Positions 18,260 through 34,803 of a stretch of 64,000 nucleotides of DNA are shown here, one piece after another. Below the pieces are notes generated by a model that was not told the DNA's origin, made no database searches, and saw only the letters and a list, made by a program, of their open reading frames with translations. The position numbers and the translations under genes were made by a program. The DNA is from Tahibacter aquaticus (GTDB taxonomy: Bacteria > Pseudomonadota > Gammaproteobacteria > Xanthomonadales > Rhodanobacteraceae): contig NZ_SNZH01000020.1 of NCBI RefSeq assembly GCF_004363655.1, forward strand, positions 1 through 64,000. The letters run 5' to 3'. Each line of letters begins with the position of its first letter. Within the stretch, counting starts at the first letter, position 1.

Positions 18260-18739
18260 CACAGTTGGCGTCGTAGCAGAATTGCAACGTGCGCGTTCCC
18301 GCGATGGGCCGGGCATTTTTTTTGAACACGAGGGCGCTGCGGGTGCATAGAGATCGAATCCGCATCCGACAGCTGCGCCCACGGGCGGCAGGGTCGGGGC
18401 GGGCCTGCATCGCCGCGCCTGCATGCCGCAGTGGACGTGCCGCGTTGGACTTTGACGGCTGCCCGCAGCGCAGCGTGCGTTGGCTCGCCGCTGCTGTACC
18501 GCGTCGTCCGATTGCGCATCCACACCTCGCTTCGTCGCGTTCGATGACACATGCCGCACCGTGCTGCGTCGGCCTGCCGCGCCGCATCGGCAGGGTTTCA
18601 GCTGACGCACCAGCGCTTTTTTCGGCATGGCCGCGGCGTGCGTTTGCCGGCTTTTTTTTGCGAGGAACCGCCCGATGAGCTGATCCGGCGCGTGCCGCGA
18701 TCGTCGTCCGAGGCATTCAGTAGTTCACTGGAGGGCAAT
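18260..18739 (+). other. long untranslated leader of NRPS 1
   Basis: About 480 bases separate the predicted sigma54 start site from the NRPS start codon. There is no convincing gene here. T-runs occur at about 18306-18319 and 18650-18659. No clean terminator hairpin is visible. An open frame in phase with the NRPS begins at 18551, but its extra residues are compositionally unlike the docking domain that follows. Confidence 0.4.
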
Positions 18740-21700
18740 GTGGAACAGGTCTGGGAGTTGCTAAGCGAGCTGGCGAGCAAGGACATCAAGCTCGCCGTCG
18801 AAGACGGCAAGTTGAGCTGCTATGCGCCGAAAGGTTCATTGACTACCGAACTGACGAACGGCATTGCCCGGTTCAAGCCGGCGATCATGGACATCCTGCG
18901 AAACGGCGACGGCAAGCAGTCCGCCGCGCGCGGTGTCGGCGAGTTTCCTTTGTCGGTGGGCGAGAATTCGCATTACATCCTGCAGCAGCTCAATCCCCAG
19001 CGCAGTCACGCCGTTCCCATCTGCATCAAGATCGGTGCCGCGATCGACGCAGGCCTTCTGGCCCAGGCCTGGGACCGCGTCATCGACCGCTTCCCGCTGC
19101 TCAAGACGCGCTTCGTCGAACACGAAGGCACGCTGTCGCATCAGCTGGACGAGCGCTGCCGCTCCGCCATCCGGCACGAAACACTACCGCTGCAGACCGA
19201 TGCCGAACTGGTCGCGCATTTCCAGGCCAAGGTGCTGGAACCGTTCGATCTGCAGCAGGGCCCGTTGTCGCGCATAACCCTGTTCACCTGGGCCGGCGGA
19301 CAGACCGGCCTGTTCATCCTGATCCATCACATCATCTTCGATGGTTTCTCCACCGGTATCCTGCTGCGCGCGCTGTTTGCTGCCTACCGCGATGTTGCCG
19401 GGGGAATCGCGCCGCCGCCGGCGCGTGACGCATCGGGCTTCGCGCCGTTCGTGGACTGGGAAGCGCAGATGCTGGCCTCGGCCGAAGGCGCGCAGCATTC
19501 GGATTTCTGGAAAGAGCAGCTGCGCGGCGAACTGCCGGGCTTCAAGCTGCTGCCCGACGCGCCGCAGCCGCTGCCGCCGGGCTACAAGGCGGAAATCATC
19601 GTCGATGTGCTGCCGGAGCCGACCAGCCAGTGGCTGCGCGATTTCGCCAGGACACATTCCCTGCAGCCTTCGGCGCTGTTCCTGGCCGTATTCCAGCTGC
19701 TGCTGTACAAATATTCGAACCAGAAAGATATCGTCGTGGTGATGCCGGTCATCGTGCGGCCCGACGCGCAGTTTGCCGACGAGATCGGCTATTTCTTCAA
19801 TATCGTGCCGATCCGCGCGCAGTTCGAAAAACCGCTGACGCTACCGGATTTCCTGCGCAAGACGCAGATGACGATGCTGGATGCGGTGTTCCATTCCGCC
19901 TATCCGTTCCCGCTGATGATGAATCGGCAGAAGGTCGAGGGAAATACCGAATTCAAGGTGTATTACGCCTACCAGGAATTCGCCAATCTGGACGATGGCG
20001 AATTCCGCGGCCTGCGCGACGAGTTCGGCCTGGCGCCGGTGAACGGTTTCCGCCAGGAGGCGGAAGGCGACTTCGATCTCGCCTTCGAGGTATTCAACGA
20101 CGGCGACGCGTTCCGCATTCATCTGCAGAGCAATCCCGAGCTGTACCCGAACGAGACCATCCGCGCGCTGCTGGCACACTTCCGCGTGCTGCTGGAGGAA
20201 ATCGGCAAGGATCCGCAGCGCCTGCTCGGTCACTATCCGATCGCGACCGTCGAAGACCGCGAACTGGTGCGCGGCTGGAACGCCACCGATGCGCCGTTTC
20301 CGCAGGATCGCTGCATCCACGATTTCTTTCTCGACCAGGTTGCTGCCGGTCCCGACCGGCCGGCAACGTCCTGTCGCGAGCGCCGCCTGAGCTATGCCGA
20401 ACTGGAGCAGGAGACCGGCTTGCTGGCGCTGCATCTGCAGTCGCTGGGCATAGGCCCCGATGCGATCGTCGCGCTGTGCGTGGAGCGCTCGGTCGACATG
20501 ATGATCGGCATCATGGGCATCGTGCGTGCCGGCGGCGCCTATATGCCGATTGATCCGGAGTATCCGGACGACCGCGTCGGCTACATGCTGGAAGACTCGG
20601 CCACACGCGTGATACTGACCGAGGCGAAGTTCCGCGATCGCCTGGCCGCGCTGGCCGGTGCGGGTATCAGCGTCGTCACGCTGGACCAGCAATGGCCGGC
20701 CCTGCGCAGCGATGCCGCTGCGCGCCTGCAGGGCGGCGAACAGCTGCGCCGCGAGGTGCAGCCGGACAATGTCGCCTACGTGATCTATACCTCGGGCTCA
20801 ACCGGCAAGCCCAAGGGCGTGCTGGTCGAGCATCGCGCCCTGGTCAACCGCATCCACTGGATGCAGAACAGCTACGGCCTGGGCAGCGCCGACGTCGTCG
20901 TACAGAAAACTCCGTATTGCTTCGACGTGTCGGTCTGGGAATTCTTCTGGCCGCCGATGACCGGTGCATCGCTGGTATTCGCCGTGCCGAACGGCCATTC
21001 CGACGTGCAGTACCTGGAAGGGCTGATCAACCGCAGCGGCGTCACGACCCTGCACTACGTGCCGTCGATGCTGCACGCGTTCCTCGACAACGCCAAGGGC
21101 CAGTGCCCCGGCGTGCGGCTGATCTTCTGCAGCGGCGAAGCGCTGGACCGCACCTCGGTCGACCGCTATCGCGCGGTATTCCCGAATGCCGCCTTGCACA
21201 ATCTGTACGGCCCCACCGAGGCGGCGATCGACGTCACCTTCTACGACTGCACGCGCATCGCCTATCCGTTCGTGCCGATCGGCGCGCCGATCGACAACAC
21301 GCAGATCCATATCGTCGACGAGGCGAACAATCAGCAGCCCGTCGGCGTGCCTGGCGAGCTGCATATCGCCGGCGTGAACCTCGCGCGCGGCTATCTGAAC
21401 CGCGCAGAGCTGACGCAGGAACGCTTCATCGCCAATCCGTTCGATCCCGGCACGCGCATGTACAAGACGGGCGATCTCGCGCGCTGGCTGGACGACGGCA
21501 ATATCCAGTATCTCGGCCGCATCGACGCGCAGGTCAAGATCGGCGGCGTGCGCATCGAGACCGGCGAGATCGAGTCGCACCTGAACCGGCATGCGGCGAT
21601 CAGCGAAAGCGTGGTGATCGCGCGTGGACCGGACGGCTACAAGCAGCTGATCGCGTTCTACCGCACCCACGACTCGACCCGCGACGACATGGTCAAGCTG

Positions 21701-22954
21701 GCGCACAAGGATCTGCGCGCCCACCTGTTGGAAACCTTGCCCGAATACATGATTCCCGCGGCCTTCGTCAGCGTCGCGTCGATTCCGGTGACGTCCAATG
21801 GCAAGGCCGACCGGCGCGCGCTGGAACGTATCGACGTCGGCCTGGAATCGAGCCAGGAATACATCGCGCCGCGCAGCGACACCGAACGTGCACTGGCCGA
21901 GATCTGGGCGCATGTGTTCAAGGAAAAAGGGTTCGTGCTGGAACAGGCGCAGATCGGCGTCAACGACAATTTCTTCGAGCTTGGCGGCAATTCGCTGCTC
22001 GCCACCCAGCTGCTGTACCGCATCCGTGCGCAGCTCGGCGTGGAGCTGCCCGTGCGTGCACTGTTCGACCAGGTGACCATCGGCCAGCTCGCCGAACTGG
22101 TCGAGAGCCTGCGCAAGGAAGCCGCACCGGCCGCGCCCGCGGACCTCGTCGTGACAATACAGGCCGGCGGCGACAGCACGCCGCTATTTGCGCTGCCCGG
22201 CGTCGGCGGCAACGTGCTGAGCCTGCGCGAACTGAGCCGCGCGCTCGGCCCGGAGCAACCGTTCCATGCCGTGCAGGCGATCGGGCTCGACGGCACGGCG
22301 GCGCCGCCGGACAGCGTGGAAACCACGGCGGCGGCGAACATCGCCGCGATTCGTGCGCTGCAGCCACGCGGGCCGTATCGCCTGGCCGGTCATTCCTACG
22401 GCGGCGTCGTCGCCTATGAGATGGCGCGGCAGCTGCTGGAGCAGGGCGAGACGGTGGACTACCTGGCCCTGCTCGACGCGGCCACGCCGGCCGTGCTGTA
22501 CGCCCAGCGCGCAGCGGACGAGTTCGAGGATATGCGCCAGCTCTGCGGGGAAATGGCCGAGCAGTCGGGCAGGGCGTTTGCCGTCAGCGCGGCCGAGCTG
22601 CGGGCGATGCCTGTGGAGCAGCTGATCGCCGTCCTCGGCGAGCACGGCATCGCGCTGGACCGCGCGCAATACGAGACGCTGTACCGCGTATTCCAGGCCA
22701 GCCGGCGCTGCTATCAGGCCTACCAGCCGCGTGCCTTGCCGCGGCAGATCGACGTGCTGCTGTTCCGTGCCACCCAGGTGCAGGCCAGCGCGGCGGCATT
22801 GCCGCACGACTATGGCTGGAACGCCGTGCTCGGGCACGCCGTACACGTACACGATCTCGACGCCGATCATTATTCGCTGCTGCGGGGTACAGCGGTGCAG
22901 GCGCTGGCCCAGGTACTGGTACCGGCCGGCGCCGCCGCGACACCCGCGCTCTGA
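18740..22954 (+). CDS. NRPS, C-A-T-TE, predicted serine-activating
   Basis: 1404 residues from a GTG start with GGAGGG at 18730-18735. The start is chosen because the protein then opens with a TubC-like docking domain (VEQVWELLSELA, about 1-48), as the second NRPS does. Next come a condensation domain (about 70-495, active HHIIFDG at 196), an adenylation domain (about 525-1030, YTSGSTGKPKG), a thiolation domain (Ser about 1085 in GGNS) and a thioesterase (from about 1147, GHSYGG with Ser about 1219). The specificity-pocket residues read D-V-W-H-F-S-L-I-D-K by motif alignment, close to the serine code. The TE marks it as a product-releasing module. A sigma54 promoter lies upstream. Confidence 0.93.
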   Translation: MEQVWELLSELASKDIKLAVEDGKLSCYAPKGSLTTELTNGIARFKPAIMDILRNGDGKQSAARGVGEFPLSVGENSHYILQQLNPQRSHAVPICIKIGAAIDAGLLAQAWDRVIDRFPLLKTRFVEHEGTLSHQLDERCRSAIRHETLPLQTDAELVAHFQAKVLEPFDLQQGPLSRITLFTWAGGQTGLFILIHHIIFDGFSTGILLRALFAAYRDVAGGIAPPPARDASGFAPFVDWEAQMLASAEGAQHSDFWKEQLRGELPGFKLLPDAPQPLPPGYKAEIIVDVLPEPTSQWLRDFARTHSLQPSALFLAVFQLLLYKYSNQKDIVVVMPVIVRPDAQFADEIGYFFNIVPIRAQFEKPLTLPDFLRKTQMTMLDAVFHSAYPFPLMMNRQKVEGNTEFKVYYAYQEFANLDDGEFRGLRDEFGLAPVNGFRQEAEGDFDLAFEVFNDGDAFRIHLQSNPELYPNETIRALLAHFRVLLEEIGKDPQRLLGHYPIATVEDRELVRGWNATDAPFPQDRCIHDFFLDQVAAGPDRPATSCRERRLSYAELEQETGLLALHLQSLGIGPDAIVALCVERSVDMMIGIMGIVRAGGAYMPIDPEYPDDRVGYMLEDSATRVILTEAKFRDRLAALAGAGISVVTLDQQWPALRSDAAARLQGGEQLRREVQPDNVAYVIYTSGSTGKPKGVLVEHRALVNRIHWMQNSYGLGSADVVVQKTPYCFDVSVWEFFWPPMTGASLVFAVPNGHSDVQYLEGLINRSGVTTLHYVPSMLHAFLDNAKGQCPGVRLIFCSGEALDRTSVDRYRAVFPNAALHNLYGPTEAAIDVTFYDCTRIAYPFVPIGAPIDNTQIHIVDEANNQQPVGVPGELHIAGVNLARGYLNRAELTQERFIANPFDPGTRMYKTGDLARWLDDGNIQYLGRIDAQVKIGGVRIETGEIESHLNRHAAISESVVIARGPDGYKQLIAFYRTHDSTRDDMVKLAHKDLRAHLLETLPEYMIPAAFVSVASIPVTSNGKADRRALERIDVGLESSQEYIAPRSDTERALAEIWAHVFKEKGFVLEQAQIGVNDNFFELGGNSLLATQLLYRIRAQLGVELPVRALFDQVTIGQLAELVESLRKEAAPAAPADLVVTIQAGGDSTPLFALPGVGGNVLSLRELSRALGPEQPFHAVQAIGLDGTAAPPDSVETTAAANIAAIRALQPRGPYRLAGHSYGGVVAYEMARQLLEQGETVDYLALLDAATPAVLYAQRAADEFEDMRQLCGEMAEQSGRAFAVSAAELRAMPVEQLIAVLGEHGIALDRAQYETLYRVFQASRRCYQAYQPRALPRQIDVLLFRATQVQASAAALPHDYGWNAVLGHAVHVHDLDADHYSLLRGTAVQALAQVLVPAGAAATPAL

Positions 22955-24522: not shown

Positions 24523-26952
24523 ATGCTGACGAACCTGTGGTTCGACCTGAGATACGCTCTGCGCCTGTTGCGCAAGACGATGACGCATTCGCTGCTGTCC
24601 GCGCTGGTGGTCGCCCTCAGCGTCGGCCTGGCGCTGTTCGTCTTCGTGATGGACTATGCGATCGCATTCAGGCCGCTGCCGTTCAGCGACTCGGGCAACT
24701 GGCTCAGCGTACAGATCTCGCCGAAGGCGACCGAGCGCGCGCGTCCGCGCCTGGATTCGTATACCTACCAGGAACTGCTCAACCGGCGCCGCGCAGTCAA
24801 CCATATCGGCGCATTCGCCGGACGCGAGGCGGTGCTCAGCGAGGGCGAGGAGAGCAATACCCTGCGCGCCGCGCTGATCAGCCCTGGCCTGTTCACGGCC
24901 ATGGCGGTGCAGCCCCAGCTGGGCCGGCTGTTCACTGCCACCGACGGGCAGAACGGTTCGGCCCCGGTCGTCATCCTGAGCCACGAGGCCTGGCAGAAAT
25001 ACTTCGCTGCGGACGCGTCCATCGTCGGCAAGCAGGTGCGCATCGACGCGCAGCCGATGCAGGTCGTGGCAGTGATGCCGAAAGGCTTCTACGCGTTCCA
25101 GGACTTCGAGGTCTGGTTTCCCCTGTCGCCGCAGCCGCTGGCCGCGCCGCTGGATTCGGCGCCGGTCCTGTCGGCGTTCGTGCGGCTGGAGCCGGGCCAG
25201 GACGCCGACACCGTCATGAACGAGCTGCAGCCGGTCGTGGACGAGGTCAACAAGCGCTACAGCGCCAATTTCGATGCGACGCGGCAGGTCGCCCTGTTTC
25301 CGGCCTATCGCATCTACAGCCATGCCAACATGCCGGTGATCATCGTGTCCGGCTTCATCGCGATCGCAGTGCTGCTGCTGGGATCGGTCAATATCAGCAT
25401 GATCTTCTATGCGCGCCTGCTGGAACGCAGCCGCGAGCTGGCACTGCGCTCGGCGCTGGGCTCCTCGCGCGCACGCCTGCTGCGCCAGTGCCTGCTGGAG
25501 TCGGTCGTCATCATTGCGCTGGGGCTGGTCGTCGGCATAGGGCTGGCGATGATCGGCATCCAGTGGGGCCAGAGCATCCGCGATTTCCCGTCGCAGGTAC
25601 TGGCCTCGGGTTTCCCACCGGACTATCCGGAGATGCGCGTGGTCGATCTGTTCGCGGCGATTCTCGCTGCCGCGGTGATCTGGCTGGCCAGCACGCTGAT
25701 TCCCGCCTGGCGTATCTCGCGGCAGGATGCGGCCAAGGTGATCGCCAGCGGCGGCAAGGGTGTTTCGTCCGGCCGCGGCAGTTCCAAGAGCGCGATGATC
25801 CTGGTCGGCGTGCAGGTGATCATTTCCTGCATGCTGCTGGTGATCTGCGCGAGCCTGGTGGTGGCAGTCGGCGACGAGGCAGGCAAGGCCAAGGGCGTGG
25901 CTACGGCTGGCGTGCATGTGTCGACCGAACCTACCGTGTTCGGCAGCCAGTACGCCGACGCGGCAGCGCGCACCAACTACTGGAACGAATTGTCCGGCGC
26001 CATCGGCCGGCGCCTGCCCGGTTCCAGCGCGACGTTCGCGACAGCCGTGCCGACGCGTCCGATCGAGGAAGCAGTGGCGATCGAGAACCGCGAGGTCGCG
26101 GCGAGCGAAGGCGCGCTGACATTGCCGGTCACTGCCGTGGCGGACAATTACTTCGAGGTGCTCGGCATCAGCCTGCGCGCCGGCCGTCTGTTCGACAGCA
26201 CCGACTCGGCAACCGCGCTGAACGTCGCCGTGATCGACGAGCACACCGCCAAGCGCTACTGGCCCGACCAGGATCCGCTGGGCAAGCGCATCCAGATCGA
26301 CCCAGCGGGCAACGGTCCCTGGCTGACCATCGTCGGCGTCGTTTCGCACGTCGCCGGGCAGCCGTACAGCGGCGATGCCGGTGTGATCTACCGGTCCACG
26401 CGCCAGGCCGCGCCGGCGGCGTTCCACGTCATCGTCAAGGCGCCCGCGGCCACGGCCAACGCCGCTGCCGCGATCCGCGAAGCAGCCTTTACGGTCGACC
26501 GCGATCTGCCGCTGCACAACCTGCAGAAACTCGACGACCTGCTGGCCGCGCTGGATATCGGCTTCGCGTCGATCATTCCGGTGTTCAGCGTGATCGTCGG
26601 CATCACCGTGCTGCTGGCGGCGAGCGGTCTGTTCGGACTGATCAGCCGTTCGGTCGCCCAGCGCACCCAGGAAATCGGCGTTCGCCGCGCCCTCGGCAGC
26701 ACTACCGCGCGGATCACCGCGATCTTCGTGCGCCAGGGCGCGATCTATCTCGCCATTGCGCTGATCGGCGGCTTCCTCGGCGTGGTGATGACGAACATGC
26801 TCGCGTCGGTAATACCCAACGCGCTGGACCGCGTCGCCGTGGTGATCGTCGGCGTGCTGGTGGTCATGTTCGTGGTGATCTTCTCGGCCTCGTATTTCCC
26901 GACGCGCAGGGCAGTGCGGCTGGAGCCGGGCGAGGCATTGCGCTACGAGTAA
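24523..26952 (+). CDS. MacB/FtsX-type ABC transporter permease
   Basis: 809 residues, twice the size of a simple FtsX permease. The layout is a transmembrane helix at about 22-45, a MacB-type periplasmic domain (about 50-270), an FtsX transmembrane block (about 280-400), another helix (about 425-448), a second periplasmic domain and a second FtsX block (about 685-800, with QEIGVRRALGS). This double MacB_PCD-FtsX arrangement is that of ADOP-like permeases, which act without an in-protein ATPase; the ATPase is the next gene but one hairpin away (27074). It likely exports the polyketide-peptide product, or gives self-resistance. Confidence 0.9.
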   Translation: MLTNLWFDLRYALRLLRKTMTHSLLSALVVALSVGLALFVFVMDYAIAFRPLPFSDSGNWLSVQISPKATERARPRLDSYTYQELLNRRRAVNHIGAFAGREAVLSEGEESNTLRAALISPGLFTAMAVQPQLGRLFTATDGQNGSAPVVILSHEAWQKYFAADASIVGKQVRIDAQPMQVVAVMPKGFYAFQDFEVWFPLSPQPLAAPLDSAPVLSAFVRLEPGQDADTVMNELQPVVDEVNKRYSANFDATRQVALFPAYRIYSHANMPVIIVSGFIAIAVLLLGSVNISMIFYARLLERSRELALRSALGSSRARLLRQCLLESVVIIALGLVVGIGLAMIGIQWGQSIRDFPSQVLASGFPPDYPEMRVVDLFAAILAAAVIWLASTLIPAWRISRQDAAKVIASGGKGVSSGRGSSKSAMILVGVQVIISCMLLVICASLVVAVGDEAGKAKGVATAGVHVSTEPTVFGSQYADAAARTNYWNELSGAIGRRLPGSSATFATAVPTRPIEEAVAIENREVAASEGALTLPVTAVADNYFEVLGISLRAGRLFDSTDSATALNVAVIDEHTAKRYWPDQDPLGKRIQIDPAGNGPWLTIVGVVSHVAGQPYSGDAGVIYRSTRQAAPAAFHVIVKAPAATANAAAAIREAAFTVDRDLPLHNLQKLDDLLAALDIGFASIIPVFSVIVGITVLLAASGLFGLISRSVAQRTQEIGVRRALGSTTARITAIFVRQGAIYLAIALIGGFLGVVMTNMLASVIPNALDRVAVVIVGVLVVMFVVIFSASYFPTRRAVRLEPGEALRYE

Positions 26953-26964
26953 CGCAAATCGGAC

Positions 26965-26989
26965 GCCGCCGCGGCCAGGCCGCGGCGGC
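26965..26989. other. perfect intercistronic hairpin
   Basis: Twelve-base arms (26965-26976 and 26978-26989) flank a single A, which makes a near-perfect GC palindrome 12 bases after the permease stop. No T-run follows, so it is more likely an mRNA-processing or stability element between permease and ATPase cistrons than a terminator. Confidence 0.5.
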
Positions 26990-27073
26990 ACAGGCACATT
27001 GGCGGCACCGTCGCCGCCATCCAGCGTGATACACAACGCACCGCCCAGACATGCCGGTGCACAGGAGATCGTC

Positions 27074-27796
27074 ATGAGCAAGCAACACCTGATCGAATTG
27101 CAGGCCGTCAAGAAGATCTTCTACACGGACGACCTGGAGACCTGGGCGCTCAACAATATTCATCTCACCATCGACGCGGGTGAATACGTGTCGATCAGCG
27201 GCCCGTCGGGCTGCGGCAAATCCACGCTGCTGTCGGTGATGGGGCTGCTCAGCTCCTTCACCGAAGGCAAGTACCTGCTCAACGGCGCGGAAGTGTCGAG
27301 TCTCGGCGAGGCCGAGCAGGCGCGCGTGCGCAACCAGGAAATCGGCTTCATCTTCCAGGCCTTCAACCTGATCGGCGACATGAGCGTGTTCGAGAATGTC
27401 GAACTGCCGCTGACCTTCCGCAACGACCTCTCGCGCAAGCAGCGTCACGAAATGGTGGTCGAGGCACTGGAGCAGGTGGAGATCGGTCATCGCCAGAAGC
27501 ACTATCCAGCAGAACTGTCGGGCGGCCAGCAGCAGCGCGTCGCCATTGCGCGCGCGCTGGTTGGCAAGCCCAAGGTGCTGCTGGCCGACGAACCGACCGG
27601 CAATCTCGATTCGAAGAATGCGCAGATCGTGATGGACCAGCTCGCCGCCCTGCATCGCAAGGGCAGCACCATCGTGATGGTCACGCACGATCCGCGTTCC
27701 GCCGAGCAGGCGCAGCGCCAGGTATCGCTGTTCGACGGCAAGCTCGTCGACGATCGCACGATGTCGCAGGGCGTGCGCATGGCGGCACACGGCTAG
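27074..27796 (+). CDS. ABC transporter ATPase (MacB/LolD-like)
   Basis: 240 residues, with AGGAGAT just before the ATG at 27074. Walker A GPSGCGKST (about 44-52), Q-loop FQAFNL, signature LSGGQQQR (about 146) and Walker B VLLADEPTGNLDS are all intact. This is the class of ATPase that pairs with FtsX-fold permeases. It completes a tripartite export operon (adaptor, permease, ATPase) lying between the two NRPS genes, and should power product export. Confidence 0.93.
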   Translation: MSKQHLIELQAVKKIFYTDDLETWALNNIHLTIDAGEYVSISGPSGCGKSTLLSVMGLLSSFTEGKYLLNGAEVSSLGEAEQARVRNQEIGFIFQAFNLIGDMSVFENVELPLTFRNDLSRKQRHEMVVEALEQVEIGHRQKHYPAELSGGQQQRVAIARALVGKPKVLLADEPTGNLDSKNAQIVMDQLAALHRKGSTIVMVTHDPRSAEQAQRQVSLFDGKLVDDRTMSQGVRMAAHG

Positions 27797-27893
27797 TGTC
27801 CTGACGCGGCCGCGCCGGCGTTTGCCGGCCGCGGCCTGGCGGGCACGCCACTCGCCGAGGGGGCGGCGAGCGAATCAGCAGACGGGGAGCTGC

Positions 27894-30800
27894 GTGGCGA
27901 CGGTAATCGAACTATTGCGTGCTCTCGCTGGCCAGCGGATACGGCTGTCGCTGGAAGACGGCCAGCTGAACTGCTACGCCCACAAGGGTGCGCTGACGCC
28001 GCCGCTGAAGGCTGCGATCGCGCAGCACAAGACCGAGCTGGTGGCGCTGCTGCAGGCGCGCCGCCAGGCGGAAGCGCCCGTGCCCACGCCCCAGGCCGGC
28101 GGCGACGGCGACGGCGAGCGGGGCTTTGCCCTGTCAGTGGGCGCACGCGCGCTATACCTGCTGCAGCGGCTCGACCCCGCCTCCAGTGCGTACAATATTC
28201 CCCTTTGCATTAAATTACACGGTGCGGTCGACCTGGCGGTGCTGCAGCAGGCCTGGAGCGCCGTGCTCGATCGCTATCCGATACTCACGACGCACGTCAT
28301 CGACGAAAACGGCGTTGCTCGTCTGCTGGCACACCCGCGCTGCCGCAGCAGTGTCGATAGCCACGAACCCGCGCCCGCGGACGACGCCCAGTTGCTGCCG
28401 TTCCTGCGCCGGCGTGCCAGCCTGCCATTCGATCTGCAGAACGGTCCGCTGGTGCGCATCGCGCTGTTGCGCCAGGACGCGATGCGTTCGGTGCTGCTGA
28501 TCACCGTGCACCACCTGATCTTCGACGGCAGTTCCGCCGTGCTGCTGCTGAAAGCCCTGCTGGCCAACTACCGCTGTCTGCTGCAGGGAAAGCCGTTGTC
28601 TGGCGTTGCCGCGCCGTCGGGCAATGCCGACTTCGTCGCGGCCGAAGCTGCCCTGCTGGCCTCGCCCGACGGTGCCAAGCAGGCCAGCTACTGGCAGCGG
28701 CAGCTCGACGGAATTCCCTCGGGTTTCGAACTGGTGCCGCAGCTGCCGCTACCGGCTGCCGGCGGCGGCGAGCAGGGTTCCACGCTGACCGAAACCCTGC
28801 CGCAGGATCTGTCGGCCTGGCTGCGCCAGGCCGCGCGCGACTACGGCGCAACGCCTTCGGCCATCCTGCTGTCGGCCTTTGCGGTACTGCTGCATCGCTA
28901 CAGCGGCGAGGACGATATCGTCATCGGCATGCCGGTGTCGGCCCGCAGCAAGCAGCACTACGCCACCGATATCGGCTACTTCGTCAACATGGTGCCGTTG
29001 CGTATCCGCTGCAGCGGTCCGCGCCGCTTTGTGGATTTCCTGCACGACACGCAGGCGACGATGCTGGAAGCGCTGTACCACAGCACGTATCCGTTCGCGC
29101 TGATGCGCGACGGTCCGCGCCATCGCGTTGCCGGCGAGAACGGCATCTTCCAGGTCTCCTACGCGCTGCAGGATTTCCTGCATCCGGCCGAATTCGCCCG
29201 TGCAGCGGACGAGCCGGGGCCCGATATCGAATACCTCGGCAGCATCGTGCAGGAAGGCGATTCCGATCTCGCCCTGGAAGTATTCGATGCGGGCACGTCG
29301 CTGGTGCTGCAGCTGAAGTACGGTGTGCAGCGCTACGCGCGCGCCAGCGTGGTCCGGCTGCTGGCGCACTACTGCCGCCTGCTGCAGTCGATCCGTGCCG
29401 ATCCCCTGAGCGAGATCGGTACCTTCGCCTTCCTGTCGGAGACGGAAGAGCAGCGCGTGCTGCACGTGTTCAACGATACGCATGCCGCGTATCCGAAGCA
29501 GGCGTGCATTCACGATCTGTTCGTGCAGCAGGCGCTGGCGCAGCCGCAGCGCATCGCGCTGGTACACGGCAGCGATACGCTGACCTATGCGGGGCTGGAA
29601 GCGACCAGCCGCGATCTCGCCATCTACCTGCAGGCAAAGGGCGTAGGTGCTGGCAGCAGGGTAGGGCTGTGCCTGGATCGTTCGCCGCCGCTGCTGGTCG
29701 GCCTGCTCGGCATCCTGCGCGCCGGCGCCGTTGCGGTGCCGCTGGATCCGGACTATCCGCAGGAGCGCCTCGCCTACCTGCTGCAGGACAGCGGTGCGGC
29801 CCTGCTGCTGACCCAGCGCCAGTTCTTGGCGCGACTGCAGCCAGGCCTGCCGCCCACCGTGCGCCTGCTGTGCTGGGACGATGCCGCAATGGCGCGCGAG
29901 CAGGACATCGCGGCGCTCAAGGCGAGCGGTGCCGAACTGCAGCACACGGCTGGAGCGGGCGATCCGGCGTACCTGATCTATACCTCGGGTTCCACCGGCT
30001 TGCCCAAAGGCGTACTGGTCGAACACCGCAGCCTGGTCAACCACAACGTGTTCGCGCGCGCGCAGTACGTCATCGGCGCGGACGACACGCAGATCCTGTT
30101 TTCCAGCCTGAGCTTCGATCTGTTCCTGGAAGAGGTGTTCTGCATTCTCAACAGCGGCGCGAAACTGGTACTGGCGCCGAAGGAAGATCTGCTGTCGCTG
30201 CAGCGGCTGCAGGCACTGATCGCTGCGCAGAAGGTCAGCGTGCTGAATCTGCCGACGGCGTTCCTGCATGAGCTGCTGGGTGCAGGCATGGACCTGGCCG
30301 GCATCCGCTGCGTCATCGTCGGCGGCGAGAAACTCGACTATGCCAAGGCGTGCGAGTTCGTCGAGCGCTTTCCCCGCATCGCCCTGCACAACACCTACGG
30401 CCCGACCGAAACCACCATCATCAGCACGGCGATAGAAGTGACGGCGGCCTCGCTGCAGGGCCGCGACAGCGTGCCGATCGGGCGGCCTATCGCGAATACC
30501 CAGATTTACTTGCTCGATCGCTATGGCAATCCGCAGCCGCCCGGCGTGGCGGGCGAGTTGTGCATCGCCGGCGACGGCGTCTCGCGCGGCTACTGGGGCA
30601 AGCCCGAGCTTACCCGCGAGCGCTTCGTCGCCAATCCCTTCGTGCGCGGCACGCGCCTGTACCGCAGCGGCGACCTGGCGCGCTGGCTCGACGACGGTAC
30701 GCTGGAATACCTGGGCCGCATCGACGCGCAGCTGAAGCTGCGCGGCTTTCGCATCGAACCCGGCGAGATCGAAGCACGCCTGCATACCCATGCGCAGATC

Positions 30801-32732
30801 GATATTGCCGTCGTTGTCGCGCGTGGCGAAGGTGCGAACCGGCAGCTGGTCGCGTTCTACCGCGGCCGCGACGGCGCCCAGCCGCCCGCGGACGAACTGC
30901 GCGCCTATCTGCAGCAGACCTTGCCCGGCTACCTGATTCCTCAGGGCTTTGTGCATCTGTCCATGATTCCACATACGCCAGCCGGCAAGGTCGACCGGCG
31001 TGCTCTGGAACGGCTGGACGTGGTGCTGGAATCGAACCGGCAGCAGGTGGCTGCTCGCACGCCGATCGAGCGGCAGCTGGTGGACATCTGGGCGCAGGTG
31101 CTGAAACTGACCACTGCATCCATCGGCGTGCACGACAGTTTCTTCGACCTCGGCGGACATTCCCTGCTCGCGACGCAGCTGCTGGCGCGGATCCGCGAAC
31201 AGTTCGGCAGGGACCTGCCGCTGCGGACCTTGTTCGACGGTGCCGACATTGCCGCCATCGCGGACTGGCTCGGTGCGACGGGCGGCGGTGCGCGGCGAAT
31301 GCTGGTGCCGGTCGACCGCCAGGCCTGGCCACGGCTGCCGCTGAGCTATGCGCAGGAACGGCTCTGGTTCATTCATCAGCTCGACCCCGACGGCAGCGGC
31401 TACAACGTTCCCGGTGCCGTGCGCATTGCCGGCGAGCTGGATATCGAGCAGCTGCAGCAGGCGTTCGGACTGATCGTCCAGCGCCACGAAAGCCTGCGTA
31501 CGGTGTTCCGCAGCGAGCAGGGCCAGCCCTGCCAGCAGGTGCTGGACACGGTGGATTTCCGCCTCGGCCGCATCGACCTGACCGCGCAGGCGGCCGGCGC
31601 GCGGGAAGCACGGGCACGTGCGCTGTGCGAAGCCGAAGCCGCAACGCCGTTCGATCTGGCAAGCGGCCCGCTGATCCGCGGCCAGGTGATCCGGCTGGCC
31701 GCCGACGACCACGTGCTGATGCTGAACCTGCATCACATCGTCAGCGACGGCTGGTCCATCGGCGTGCTCGTCAGCGAACTGGGCCAAATGCTCGATGCAT
31801 TGCGCGCGGGCAGGGCACCTGCATTGGCGCCGTTGCCCGTCCAGTACGTCGACTATGCGATTGGCCAGCGCGAGTGGCTGCAGCGCGACGGCGTGTTGCA
31901 GGGCCAGCTCGGCTATTGGCGCGACCAGCTTGCCGGCGCGCCGGATCTGCTGGATCTGGCGACGGACTATCCGCGCCCTGCCGTGCAGAGTTCCGCCGGC
32001 GCGACGCAGGAATTCGTCATCGATGCGGCCCTGGCCGCGGCGTTGAAACGGCTGGCCGCGCAACACAACTGCACCCTGTTCATGCTGCTGCTCGCGCTGG
32101 TGAAAACCCTGCTGTACCGCTATACGGCGCAGGAAGACCTGTGCATTGGCACGCCGGTGGCGAATCGCCGGCAAGCCGAGACCGAAGGCCTGAACGGAAC
32201 ACGAGGAAATCCTCTGATCGACAGACGACCGTGCGCAGGACGCGCACAGGAACGAGGCCGCGTCAGGCGCGGCCGGAGCGTCCGGGAATCAGGCGATCGG
32301 AGGTCGGAACGGTGTGTCGGGCCGGCTGTCGCCCAGAGTGCGCTCGGGCCAGGGCACGACCGGTTGCGAGACGTGCGGGGCGTCGATCAGGATCCACAGC
32401 GTCGGAGGCAGGCCCGGACACGTGCCGCCAACGTGGTTATGACCCAGCGTCAGCAGATCCTTGAGCGCATCGCCGCTGTGCTGATGCCCGTGTTCGTCGT
32501 CGGCCGGCGTGTGCTGGCCCGACGCCGTTGCATCGTCAGGCGGGCTTGGCATCGCTTCCGCGCGAGCCGGTGCCGCATGCCGGTGACTGTGATCATGTGC
32601 CTGGGCTGCGGTTCCCAGCAGCAGGAAACCCAGCAGCAGCGACCAGAACACCAGCCGTCCCGCCAGCGCATGGCGCTGCGGGCGAATCATTGCTGGCGGC
32701 ACGCGGTAAAAGGGCATGGCGCTCGATGGTAG
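27894..32732 (+). CDS. NRPS, C-A-T-C with truncated final C domain
   Basis: GTG start at 27894 with GGGGAG 4 bases upstream, the same start arrangement as the first NRPS. A TubC-like docking domain (about 1-50) is followed by C (HHLIFDG at about 206), A (about 538-1040, YTSGSTGLPKG), T (Ser about 1090 in GGHS) and a second C domain (from about 1148, HHIVSDG at about 1280). The NRPS sequence stops abruptly at about residue 1437 (near base 32202), after the ANRRQAETEGL motif where a conserved Gly-Phe-Phe-Val-Asn stretch should follow. The remaining residues are Arg-rich, resemble no domain, and run antisense to the gene at 32289. The tail is readthrough after a deletion or rearrangement. The A-domain pocket (about D-L-E-N-I-G-T-I-I-K) matches no code I recognise. 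Confidence 0.85.
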   Translation: MATVIELLRALAGQRIRLSLEDGQLNCYAHKGALTPPLKAAIAQHKTELVALLQARRQAEAPVPTPQAGGDGDGERGFALSVGARALYLLQRLDPASSAYNIPLCIKLHGAVDLAVLQQAWSAVLDRYPILTTHVIDENGVARLLAHPRCRSSVDSHEPAPADDAQLLPFLRRRASLPFDLQNGPLVRIALLRQDAMRSVLLITVHHLIFDGSSAVLLLKALLANYRCLLQGKPLSGVAAPSGNADFVAAEAALLASPDGAKQASYWQRQLDGIPSGFELVPQLPLPAAGGGEQGSTLTETLPQDLSAWLRQAARDYGATPSAILLSAFAVLLHRYSGEDDIVIGMPVSARSKQHYATDIGYFVNMVPLRIRCSGPRRFVDFLHDTQATMLEALYHSTYPFALMRDGPRHRVAGENGIFQVSYALQDFLHPAEFARAADEPGPDIEYLGSIVQEGDSDLALEVFDAGTSLVLQLKYGVQRYARASVVRLLAHYCRLLQSIRADPLSEIGTFAFLSETEEQRVLHVFNDTHAAYPKQACIHDLFVQQALAQPQRIALVHGSDTLTYAGLEATSRDLAIYLQAKGVGAGSRVGLCLDRSPPLLVGLLGILRAGAVAVPLDPDYPQERLAYLLQDSGAALLLTQRQFLARLQPGLPPTVRLLCWDDAAMAREQDIAALKASGAELQHTAGAGDPAYLIYTSGSTGLPKGVLVEHRSLVNHNVFARAQYVIGADDTQILFSSLSFDLFLEEVFCILNSGAKLVLAPKEDLLSLQRLQALIAAQKVSVLNLPTAFLHELLGAGMDLAGIRCVIVGGEKLDYAKACEFVERFPRIALHNTYGPTETTIISTAIEVTAASLQGRDSVPIGRPIANTQIYLLDRYGNPQPPGVAGELCIAGDGVSRGYWGKPELTRERFVANPFVRGTRLYRSGDLARWLDDGTLEYLGRIDAQLKLRGFRIEPGEIEARLHTHAQIDIAVVVARGEGANRQLVAFYRGRDGAQPPADELRAYLQQTLPGYLIPQGFVHLSMIPHTPAGKVDRRALERLDVVLESNRQQVAARTPIERQLVDIWAQVLKLTTASIGVHDSFFDLGGHSLLATQLLARIREQFGRDLPLRTLFDGADIAAIADWLGATGGGARRMLVPVDRQAWPRLPLSYAQERLWFIHQLDPDGSGYNVPGAVRIAGELDIEQLQQAFGLIVQRHESLRTVFRSEQGQPCQQVLDTVDFRLGRIDLTAQAAGAREARARALCEAEAATPFDLASGPLIRGQVIRLAADDHVLMLNLHHIVSDGWSIGVLVSELGQMLDALRAGRAPALAPLPVQYVDYAIGQREWLQRDGVLQGQLGYWRDQLAGAPDLLDLATDYPRPAVQSSAGATQEFVIDAALAAALKRLAAQHNCTLFMLLLALVKTLLYRYTAQEDLCIGTPVANRRQAETEGLNGTRGNPLIDRRPCAGRAQERGRVRRGRSVRESGDRRSERCVGPAVAQSALGPGHDRLRDVRGVDQDPQRRRQARTRAANVVMTQRQQILERIAAVLMPVFVVGRRVLARRRCIVRRAWHRFRASRCRMPVTVIMCLGCGSQQQETQQQRPEHQPSRQRMALRANHCWRHAVKGHGARW
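32289..32717 (-). CDS. His-rich secreted protein of unknown function
   Basis: 142 residues from the upstream ATG, or 133 from ATG 32690. A hydrophobic segment (FWSLLLGFLLLGTAAQA) reads as a signal peptide, followed by HDHSHRH and further His clusters (DEHGHQH, LGHNH). The C terminus is Pro-rich. His-rich secreted proteins of this size are often encoded near metal-efflux genes and may bind Zn, Cu or Ni, but no transporter is adjacent here. It runs antisense to the open tail of the broken NRPS and probably came in with the sequence that replaced the NRPS end. Confidence 0.7.
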   Translation of the reverse strand: MPFYRVPPAMIRPQRHALAGRLVFWSLLLGFLLLGTAAQAHDHSHRHAAPARAEAMPSPPDDATASGQHTPADDEHGHQHSGDALKDLLTLGHNHVGGTCPGLPPTLWILIDAPHVSQPVVPWPERTLGDSRPDTPFRPPIA

Positions 32733-32834: not shown

Positions 32835-33776
32835 CTAGGTGGCGGGCACGAAACTGCGGGGGTTGGCCAACGCGAAATGAATAGCCGCAGTCACGGCCAC
32901 CGCCTGCGCGGTATTGCATTGCTCGGCCGTGGCCCGGGGACTGTCGGGGTAGACCTCGGTCGTCGTCTTGTAGGGCGCCGCGGTGATGCCGGCACACAGG
33001 CCGAGCTGCCGCACCGGGTAGTTGATGACGCCCGGCGAGACGACAGGCGAACCGATGATCTCGCCGTTTCGATCGGCCGGTGCGATATGGGTGACGCGTG
33101 CTACGGCAGCAATGATCGCCTGCTGGAACTCGGCCTGCGGGTTCTCGCTGTCGCCGACCAGGTAGAAGCCATCGGGGATTTCGCCAGGGCTGGACTCTTC
33201 GCCATCACGGGCGGCCTTCGCCGGCCGGAACTCGGACTCGTCCGTGTCCGTGGTTTCATGCAGATCGATATGGACCAGCACGCGATCGCGAATCGGCGCG
33301 ACCAGGCGCATCAGCGCCGCGGCTTCCTCTGCCGGACTGCCGTCGCGGAACGAGCGGTTGGGGTCGATGGCATCGCGATTCCAGCGGTGAATCCGCTCGT
33401 AAGCCCAGGGACTGATACAGGGGGCAACGAGCAGATTGAGCCGACCCGCATAGTCTGCCGCGTGCTGCTCGACGAACTGCAGAGCGCCGTGTACGCCGCT
33501 GGTTTCGTAGCCGTGCACGCCGCCGGTCACCAGCACCCAGGGCAAGTCGTCGCGCCAGTCGCGACTCTTGATGGCAAAAAGCGGAAAGGTGTCGGGTGCG
33601 TAGTCGAGGCGGCCATATTCCACTACGTCGAAGTGCGAGCGCAGCCGTTCGATCGTACTCAGTACATCCGCCGCGTAACTGCGCTGGCGGGTCTGCCGCG
33701 ACAGCCATTCGGCTTTCTCCGCGTCGCCCCAGGCCTGGCCGGGCGTGCCGATGGGGTAGGGAGCTTGGTCAGTCAT
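32835..33776 (-). CDS. M14-family zinc metallopeptidase
   Basis: 313 residues from ATG 33776. It carries the zinc ligands of the carboxypeptidase A superfamily: HGYE in TGGVHGYETSG (HxxE) and a later His in IDLHETTD. The length and the lack of a signal peptide suggest a cytosolic enzyme close to the succinylglutamate desuccinylase/carboxypeptidase-like branch. The substrate is unknown; family members cleave C-terminal residues or amide bonds. It is a single gene between the His-rich protein and a divergent methyltransferase. Confidence 0.85.
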   Translation of the reverse strand: MTDQAPYPIGTPGQAWGDAEKAEWLSRQTRQRSYAADVLSTIERLRSHFDVVEYGRLDYAPDTFPLFAIKSRDWRDDLPWVLVTGGVHGYETSGVHGALQFVEQHAADYAGRLNLLVAPCISPWAYERIHRWNRDAIDPNRSFRDGSPAEEAAALMRLVAPIRDRVLVHIDLHETTDTDESEFRPAKAARDGEESSPGEIPDGFYLVGDSENPQAEFQQAIIAAVARVTHIAPADRNGEIIGSPVVSPGVINYPVRQLGLCAGITAAPYKTTTEVYPDSPRATAEQCNTAQAVAVTAAIHFALANPRSFVPAT

Positions 33777-33981
33777 CGCGTTGCTCGCTGGAGCCGTGTT
33801 GCGGCAGGGCCGCACACTGTAGCATCGGGGCGAAATGCCAGCGGCTTGCCCAATGAGATGCCGGGCCGGACAGAGCAATCGCTTCTGCCGGGTTGCTGGG
33901 ACAATGCCTCTTTGCCCTTTTCGCCGCCGTCTCTGATGGCGCCCCAGGAGATTTCCTATCGAGCCGCACTATTCCGGTCCT

Positions 33982-34803
33982 TTGCTTACCCTGGCAGCGG
34001 CCGAGGCACTCCTGGCCGCTCGCGATGCACGGGCAGGCAGCTGGACCGGCTCGCTGGACTTGCAGCGCTCGCACGGCGACGCCGTACTGGAGACCGACGC
34101 CTGGCAATGGCGCGGCCAGCACTATCCCTATCCGCAGCGCCTGAAAGACCGCACCATCTATTACTGGGACGGCACCGGCTTTGCGTCGGTGTCGCGCTTC
34201 TCCGCCTCGCTGATCAAGCTGGTGCCCAGCGAATGGGGCGCGCCGACGTTCGAGATCGACGGCATCAAGATGCTTCCCACCGCCAAGGAATCGCCCTTCG
34301 AGGATGCGCGTCGCAAGGTGGCGCTGATCGAGCCACACGGCAAGGTAGTACTCGATACCTGCGGCGGCCTGGGCTACTTCGCCGCCTGTTGTGTCGAAGC
34401 GGGTGTTGCACGCGTTCATTCGTTCGAGAAAAACGCCGACGTACTCTGGCTGCGCACGCTTAACCCGTGGTCGCCCGATCCCGCAGTGCCCGCCATCGGC
34501 AGCCGGCTGCAGCTTGTGCATGCCGACGTGTCGCAGGCGATTGCACAGATTGCCGATGCCTCGGTGGATGCCTTGCTGCACGATCCGCCGCGCTTCGGTA
34601 TTGCCGGCGAGCTGTATTCGCAGGCGTTCTACGGCCAGCTGGCGCGCGTGCTGCGCCGGGGAGGCCGCCTGTTCCACTACACCGGCAGTCCGAACAAGCT
34701 CACCAGCGGCCGCGATGTGCCGCGCGAGGTGGAGAAACGGCTGGAGAAGGCCGGCTTCAAGGCACAGCTCGCCCTGGACGGCGTGCTGGCGACACGGCGC
34801 TGA
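33982..34803 (+). CDS. SAM-dependent methyltransferase
   Basis: 273 residues from a TTG. The Rossmann methyltransferase core shows VVLDTCGGLGYFAA (SAM-binding loop I) at about 113-126 and LLHDPPRF, resembling the DPPR/NPPY catalytic motif. The C-terminal FHYTGSPNKLTSGRDVP is typical of predicted archaeal/bacterial methyltransferases of the COG2521 type. The open frame continues upstream without ATG or GTG to an ATC codon at 33958, which has CAGGAG 7 bases before it and would add EPHYSGP to the N terminus. The true start may therefore be a rare ATC. The substrate is unknown. Confidence 0.8.
   Translation: MLTLAAAEALLAARDARAGSWTGSLDLQRSHGDAVLETDAWQWRGQHYPYPQRLKDRTIYYWDGTGFASVSRFSASLIKLVPSEWGAPTFEIDGIKMLPTAKESPFEDARRKVALIEPHGKVVLDTCGGLGYFAACCVEAGVARVHSFEKNADVLWLRTLNPWSPDPAVPAIGSRLQLVHADVSQAIAQIADASVDALLHDPPRFGIAGELYSQAFYGQLARVLRRGGRLFHYTGSPNKLTSGRDVPREVEKRLEKAGFKAQLALDGVLATRR

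Follow-up and report, generated by a model that had tools for sequence, protein, structure and literature searches.

The window analysed here covers the opening 64 kb of contig C20 in the Tahibacter aquaticus genome, a 7.27-Mb assembly of 82 contigs that is rated 100% complete. Positions 1-32201 have the appearance of a trans-AT PKS/NRPS hybrid cluster, comprising a PKS with KS, DH and KR but without AT, a glutamine-dependent amidotransferase, a SolJ-like metallo-hydrolase, an HMG-CoA-synthase-like enzyme, a free acyltransferase, an NRPS with a terminal thioesterase (NRPS1), a MacB-type exporter, and a second NRPS (NRPS2). The contig edge coincides with the start of the window and lies inside the PKS, so that the left end of the cluster is also absent from C20. 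The SolJ-like metallo-hydrolase raised the question of membership in the solanimycin cluster family, which was rejected because the gene content published for that family is different (PMC9765074). The Tahibacter cluster described in PMC13291983 is a PUFA-synthase-like pathway. Elsewhere in the genome, six contigs of 3-15 kb (C37, C38, C42, C46, C48, and C50) consist mostly of NRPS modules and end inside modules; these are pieces of another large, fragmented NRPS cluster of the same genome (G000).

The NRPS2 open reading frame extends from 27822 to 32732, and a Pfam domain search of it recovers TubC_N, C, A, T, and a partial second C domain, and no thioesterase (TE). The truncated synthetase itself, with its TubC_N docking domain, occupies 27822-32201 on the forward strand. 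Module 1 is complete, and module 2 is reduced to 285 of the 456 C-domain positions, with no A or T. Of the attributes of a functional terminal synthetase, orthology to the NRPS2 of relatives is present up to the break, and a full set of complete C-A-T modules and a terminal TE are lacking. The partial condensation domain (31335-32199, forward strand) matches positions 5-289 of 456 of PF00668 with 244 bits, the Pfam match covering 31335-32192; its last third is absent, and its HHxxxDG motif is kept, as HHIVSDG read directly in the translation. Around the break the translation reads ...ANRRQAETEGLNGTRGNP..., and the residues after TEGL are not condensation-domain sequence. The first-pass annotation had placed the end of NRPS similarity near 32202, after TEGL and where a GFFVN-type segment should follow, which proves right within a few bases, as DNA identity to the orthologue in a congener ends at 32199. 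The remainder of the frame (32203-32732, forward strand) is a spurious open tail, antisense to a His-rich gene. That the frame stays open only through this overlap, as had also been proposed, is borne out: the tail lies opposite the His-rich gene (32289-32717, reverse strand) with the codons of the two in register, the His-rich gene has no TTA, CTA, or TCA codon, and when the bases of the antisense stretch were shuffled, only 1.5% of the results remained open.

The architecture that NRPS2 has lost is preserved in relatives. The locus in congener G006, the metagenome-assembled genome (MAG) Lysobacterales bin79 (L101/L077, JAAFHE010000098.1, G006:C832), and that in the Lysobacterales MAG UWPOB_LYSO1 (L103, JAFLDZ010000002.1) both have exporter genes and an ABC ATPase before NRPS2, and an NRPS2 that starts TubC-C-A-T-C as in the window, with 75% and 53% protein identity, respectively, over the shared part. 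By blastn, the L077 DNA is 82% identical over 25046-32199 and then diverges. At the break L077 reads ...AETEGLIGMFVNTLVLRT... and the window reads ...AETEGLNGTRGNP...; past the break, the L077 protein continues through ...AETEGLIGMFVNTLVLRT... into A, T, and the first thioesterase residues before the contig ends. The L077 thioesterase start, too short for a Pfam match, was recognised by visual comparison with NRPS1 and L103. The L103 gene, on a 583-kb contig, is complete at 2476 aa (TubC-C-A-T-C-A-T-TE, with the TE at residues 2224-2471), and is followed downstream by genes for TonB and seryl-tRNA synthetase; beyond the break point it continues for 1,035 residues, which the window NRPS2 lacks. 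Unlike the window, L103 and L077 thus both extend past the break, L103 with a terminal thioesterase and L077 to a contig end inside the thioesterase. The gene of T. caeni (L078/L102) also runs through the break point, up to its contig end. Comparison with complete homologous clusters, which the first-pass annotation had proposed as a check, therefore recovers the rest of C, A, T, and TE in L103 and, to its contig end, in L077. The expected loss of the rest of C plus A-T was correct and incomplete, because the thioesterase was lost too.

The module that NRPS2 lacks is matched over its full length by NRPS1 (18551-22954), which has the order C-A-T-TE and, at 44% identity to the A-T-TE of L103, is the best match to it in the same genome. 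This full-length match hints at a common origin of NRPS1 and NRPS2 by duplication.

The sequence to the right of the break belongs to a different kind of locus. A search with the 1.7 kb right of the junction against 61 genomes revealed 68-73% DNA identity, from 32193/32194 rightwards, to loci in G005 (L079), in another genus (L084), and on contig C4 of the same genome (L081), with homology to G007 (L080) starting slightly later. All four of these intact loci carry the His-rich gene followed by czcC, czcB, and czcA, which specify a heavy-metal RND efflux system. The window retains the His-rich gene intact (32289-32717, reverse strand; 142 aa) as a CopL/CzcI-like leader gene with homologues directly before czcCBA in G005, G007, G015, and G000:C4. 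Against the CopL family model (NF033807) the window protein has no match, and the G005 homologue scores 17.6 bits, below the cut-off of 40. Next to the leader gene, the intercistronic region (32203-32288, reverse strand) contains a GC-rich hairpin (GGCCGCG...CGCGGCC) and a ribosome-binding-site-like GAGG before a GTG, as identified in a five-locus alignment. The region folds more stably than its shuffles (z = -2.94), and a hairpin with changed sequence is also present in related loci; the region may serve regulation or processing between the cistrons of the efflux operon. The GTG and two further codons (M-F-R; 32194-32202, reverse strand) are the remnant of czcC, the outer-membrane efflux gene, and align with the intact czcC starts of L079, L081, and L084 (M-S-R in L079 and L081). 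No tblastn match to the CzcC, CzcB, or CzcA proteins was found anywhere in the 64-kb window. The right side of the junction is accordingly a second broken operon, of the CzcCBA type, and two genes are cut at one point, a finding that goes beyond the first-pass annotation. Contig C4 carries a complete paralogous His-rich-czcCBA operon (L081, 10398-10841) and, some 2 kb from it, one more His-rich homologue, which is partial (G000:C4:12983-13210).

The first ordinary gene right of the lesion is an intact AstE/AspA-type (succinylglutamate desuccinylase/aspartoacylase-like) gene (32835-33878, reverse strand; PF24827 match), which most relatives also carry, with DNA identities of about 70-83%. Its neighbours, and its order with the following methyltransferase gene (33982-34803), vary among congeners, indicating a rearranging region around it.

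The junction between the two operons can be placed at 32193-32202 from blastn boundaries, junction sequences, and alignment. NRPS homology ends at 32199 and efflux-operon homology begins at 32193/32194, with an overlap of CGGAA at 32195-32199. This pentamer is common to the L077 NRPS and the junction; on the efflux side, the only guide to the ancestor is a set of diverged relatives, of which L079 and L081 have CGGGA. The 5-bp overlap suggests that the two sides may have been joined through short homology. Overlaps of this length are typical of illegitimate recombination.

Neither of the halves cut off at the junction was found in the assembly. With 2.4 kb of L077 past the break as query, the best matches were only short A-domain pieces at 71-74% DNA identity, and the L077 protein past the break reached about 37-44% among the best own-genome matches, which is the level of any NRPS module. 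The retained part of NRPS2 reaches 82% DNA and 75% protein identity to L077, so that an orthologous missing piece would have been detected. Four PF00975 thioesterase matches are present in the genome, none of them an orphan end of NRPS2. On the efflux side, the missing czcC is represented only by a 70% paralogue in the complete C4 operon with its own His-rich gene, all other matches being at or below 41%. Two candidate locations were considered and rejected. A half C domain at the start of contig C48 (C48:1-588, PF00668 positions 253-455) overlaps the retained part with a different sequence and belongs to another gene, and contig C9, reached by way of the amidohydrolase gene beside the AstE-like gene in G006, carries no NRPS or czc junction piece. 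The first-pass annotation had left open whether the right end of the cluster was lost by deletion or rearrangement or had been moved elsewhere, and had proposed a search of the genome for the missing NRPS half. Loss is upheld, with deletion as its best-supported form, given that the missing NRPS part and the missing efflux genes are both absent from the rest of the assembly; a moved end is disfavoured.

Substitution patterns were examined for signs of relaxed selection on the retained NRPS2, and none were found. Over 1,288 retained codons shared with T. caeni, the ratio of nonsynonymous to synonymous changes was 0.55 in the window lineage versus 0.53 in the G006 lineage (Fisher p = 0.84), and it was 0.24 for the partial C domain alone. 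The lack of decay implies that the deletion is recent, or that the join is false.

The reading favoured here, with a probability of about 0.73, is that one deletion fused NRPS2, in the middle of its second C domain, to the start of czcC. The ancestral order, from left to right, would have been convergent, with NRPS2 on the forward strand, possibly other genes, and then czcA, czcB, czcC, and the His-rich gene on the reverse strand. A single event, ending at the 5-bp overlap CGGAA, would have taken about 1,035 aa from the NRPS end (what remained of C, then A, T, and TE) and, on the efflux side, czcA, czcB, and all but the first codons of czcC. Its size is estimated at about 9 kb or more from 1,035 NRPS codons (L103) plus about 1,920 czcCBA codons (L081); the ancestral spacing was not found. 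Counting against this model, the NRPS regions of the genome are badly assembled, with several contigs of 3-15 kb made up of NRPS modules, the unrelaxed constraint on the retained part demands that the event be recent, and no relative was found with the inferred NRPS2-czc order: among 148 family genomes, searched by way of the His-rich gene that only six of them carry (the window's included), none was seen with NRPS2 beside a czc operon in an intact arrangement.

What distinguishes a deletion from a chimera, an inversion, or a translocation is that each of the latter would leave the halves somewhere, and their absence favours the deletion. An assembly error, in which NRPS2 and a czc operon, both intact in the living strain, were joined into a chimera, is nonetheless an unlikely reading that deserves attention, given the division of the genome into 82 contigs, the many NRPS fragments that end at contig edges, and the lack of decay in the retained NRPS2. 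Given the completeness rating of 100%, a chimeric join should have left both halves, which include a non-repetitive thioesterase and three efflux genes, elsewhere among the contigs, and they are absent. The two sides of the junction also have only about 5 bp in common, and between the junction region and the other own-genome loci compared the longest exact match is 19 bp, on one side only; an assembly graph would not usually make a join over so short a match. It is more doubtful still that the right end of NRPS2 was moved by translocation or inversion. Gene order on the right flank does vary among congeners, the neighbours of the AstE-like gene differing in L082, L083, and L085, and the gene that neighbours it in L082 sits on C9 in the window's genome. 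Such a move, however, predicts a reciprocal junction, with the NRPS end beside the remainder of czcC, and neither piece was found in the genome. That czcCBA was lost first and the NRPS end later, with the second breakpoint falling by chance on czcC, is very improbable; the pieces need not have gone together and nothing direct speaks for two losses, while the two homologies stop inside one and the same stretch of 5-9 bp, for which one event is the simpler explanation.

If the deletion is real, its effect on the cluster can be predicted from the domain content. From what is established about NRPS biochemistry, the two-lobed enzyme is not expected to form when a C domain lacks its last third. The remaining TubC-C-A-T-half C protein would probably be able to load and join one amino acid, and without a working second condensation domain or a release domain of its own, the chain would stall on the only T domain. 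Because a half C domain is followed by no A, T, or TE, the assembly line is predicted to halt there, and the pathway is probably no longer able to finish its product by the usual route. A far less probable outcome is that the shortened NRPS2 still serves a working pathway, in which the amino acid on the sole complete module would leave it in trans, by release or by transfer, with NRPS1, a close own-genome relative of the lost module with the order C-A-T-TE, as one candidate for the task. The lack of relaxed constraint is compatible with such release, and the outcome of the deletion would then be a shortened natural product and not a dead cluster.

As an instance of biosynthetic gene decay the case is clear but ordinary, and it is not a new system; misassembly is the main remaining doubt. 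It provides a base-resolution example of a cluster end apparently lost in one step along with an unrelated operon, and product predictions for this cluster cannot take a complete second NRPS for granted. The combination of one junction and two missing halves also offers a clean sequence test of real deletion versus misassembly in NRPS-rich draft genomes.

Compared with CzcCBA/Ihp-type HME-RND operons that have a His-rich CopL/CzcI-like leader, the window keeps the His-rich gene, the intercistronic region, and the czcC start codon, and lacks the body of czcC, czcB, and czcA. With regard to NRPS2, solanimycin clusters include two strains in which SolH is without its final thioesterase domain and others in which SolF is short by about 500 aa (PMC9765074). 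These NRPS ends set a precedent for natural end loss in another cluster with another product, whereas the break in the window lies inside a C domain and takes the rest of C together with A-T-TE.
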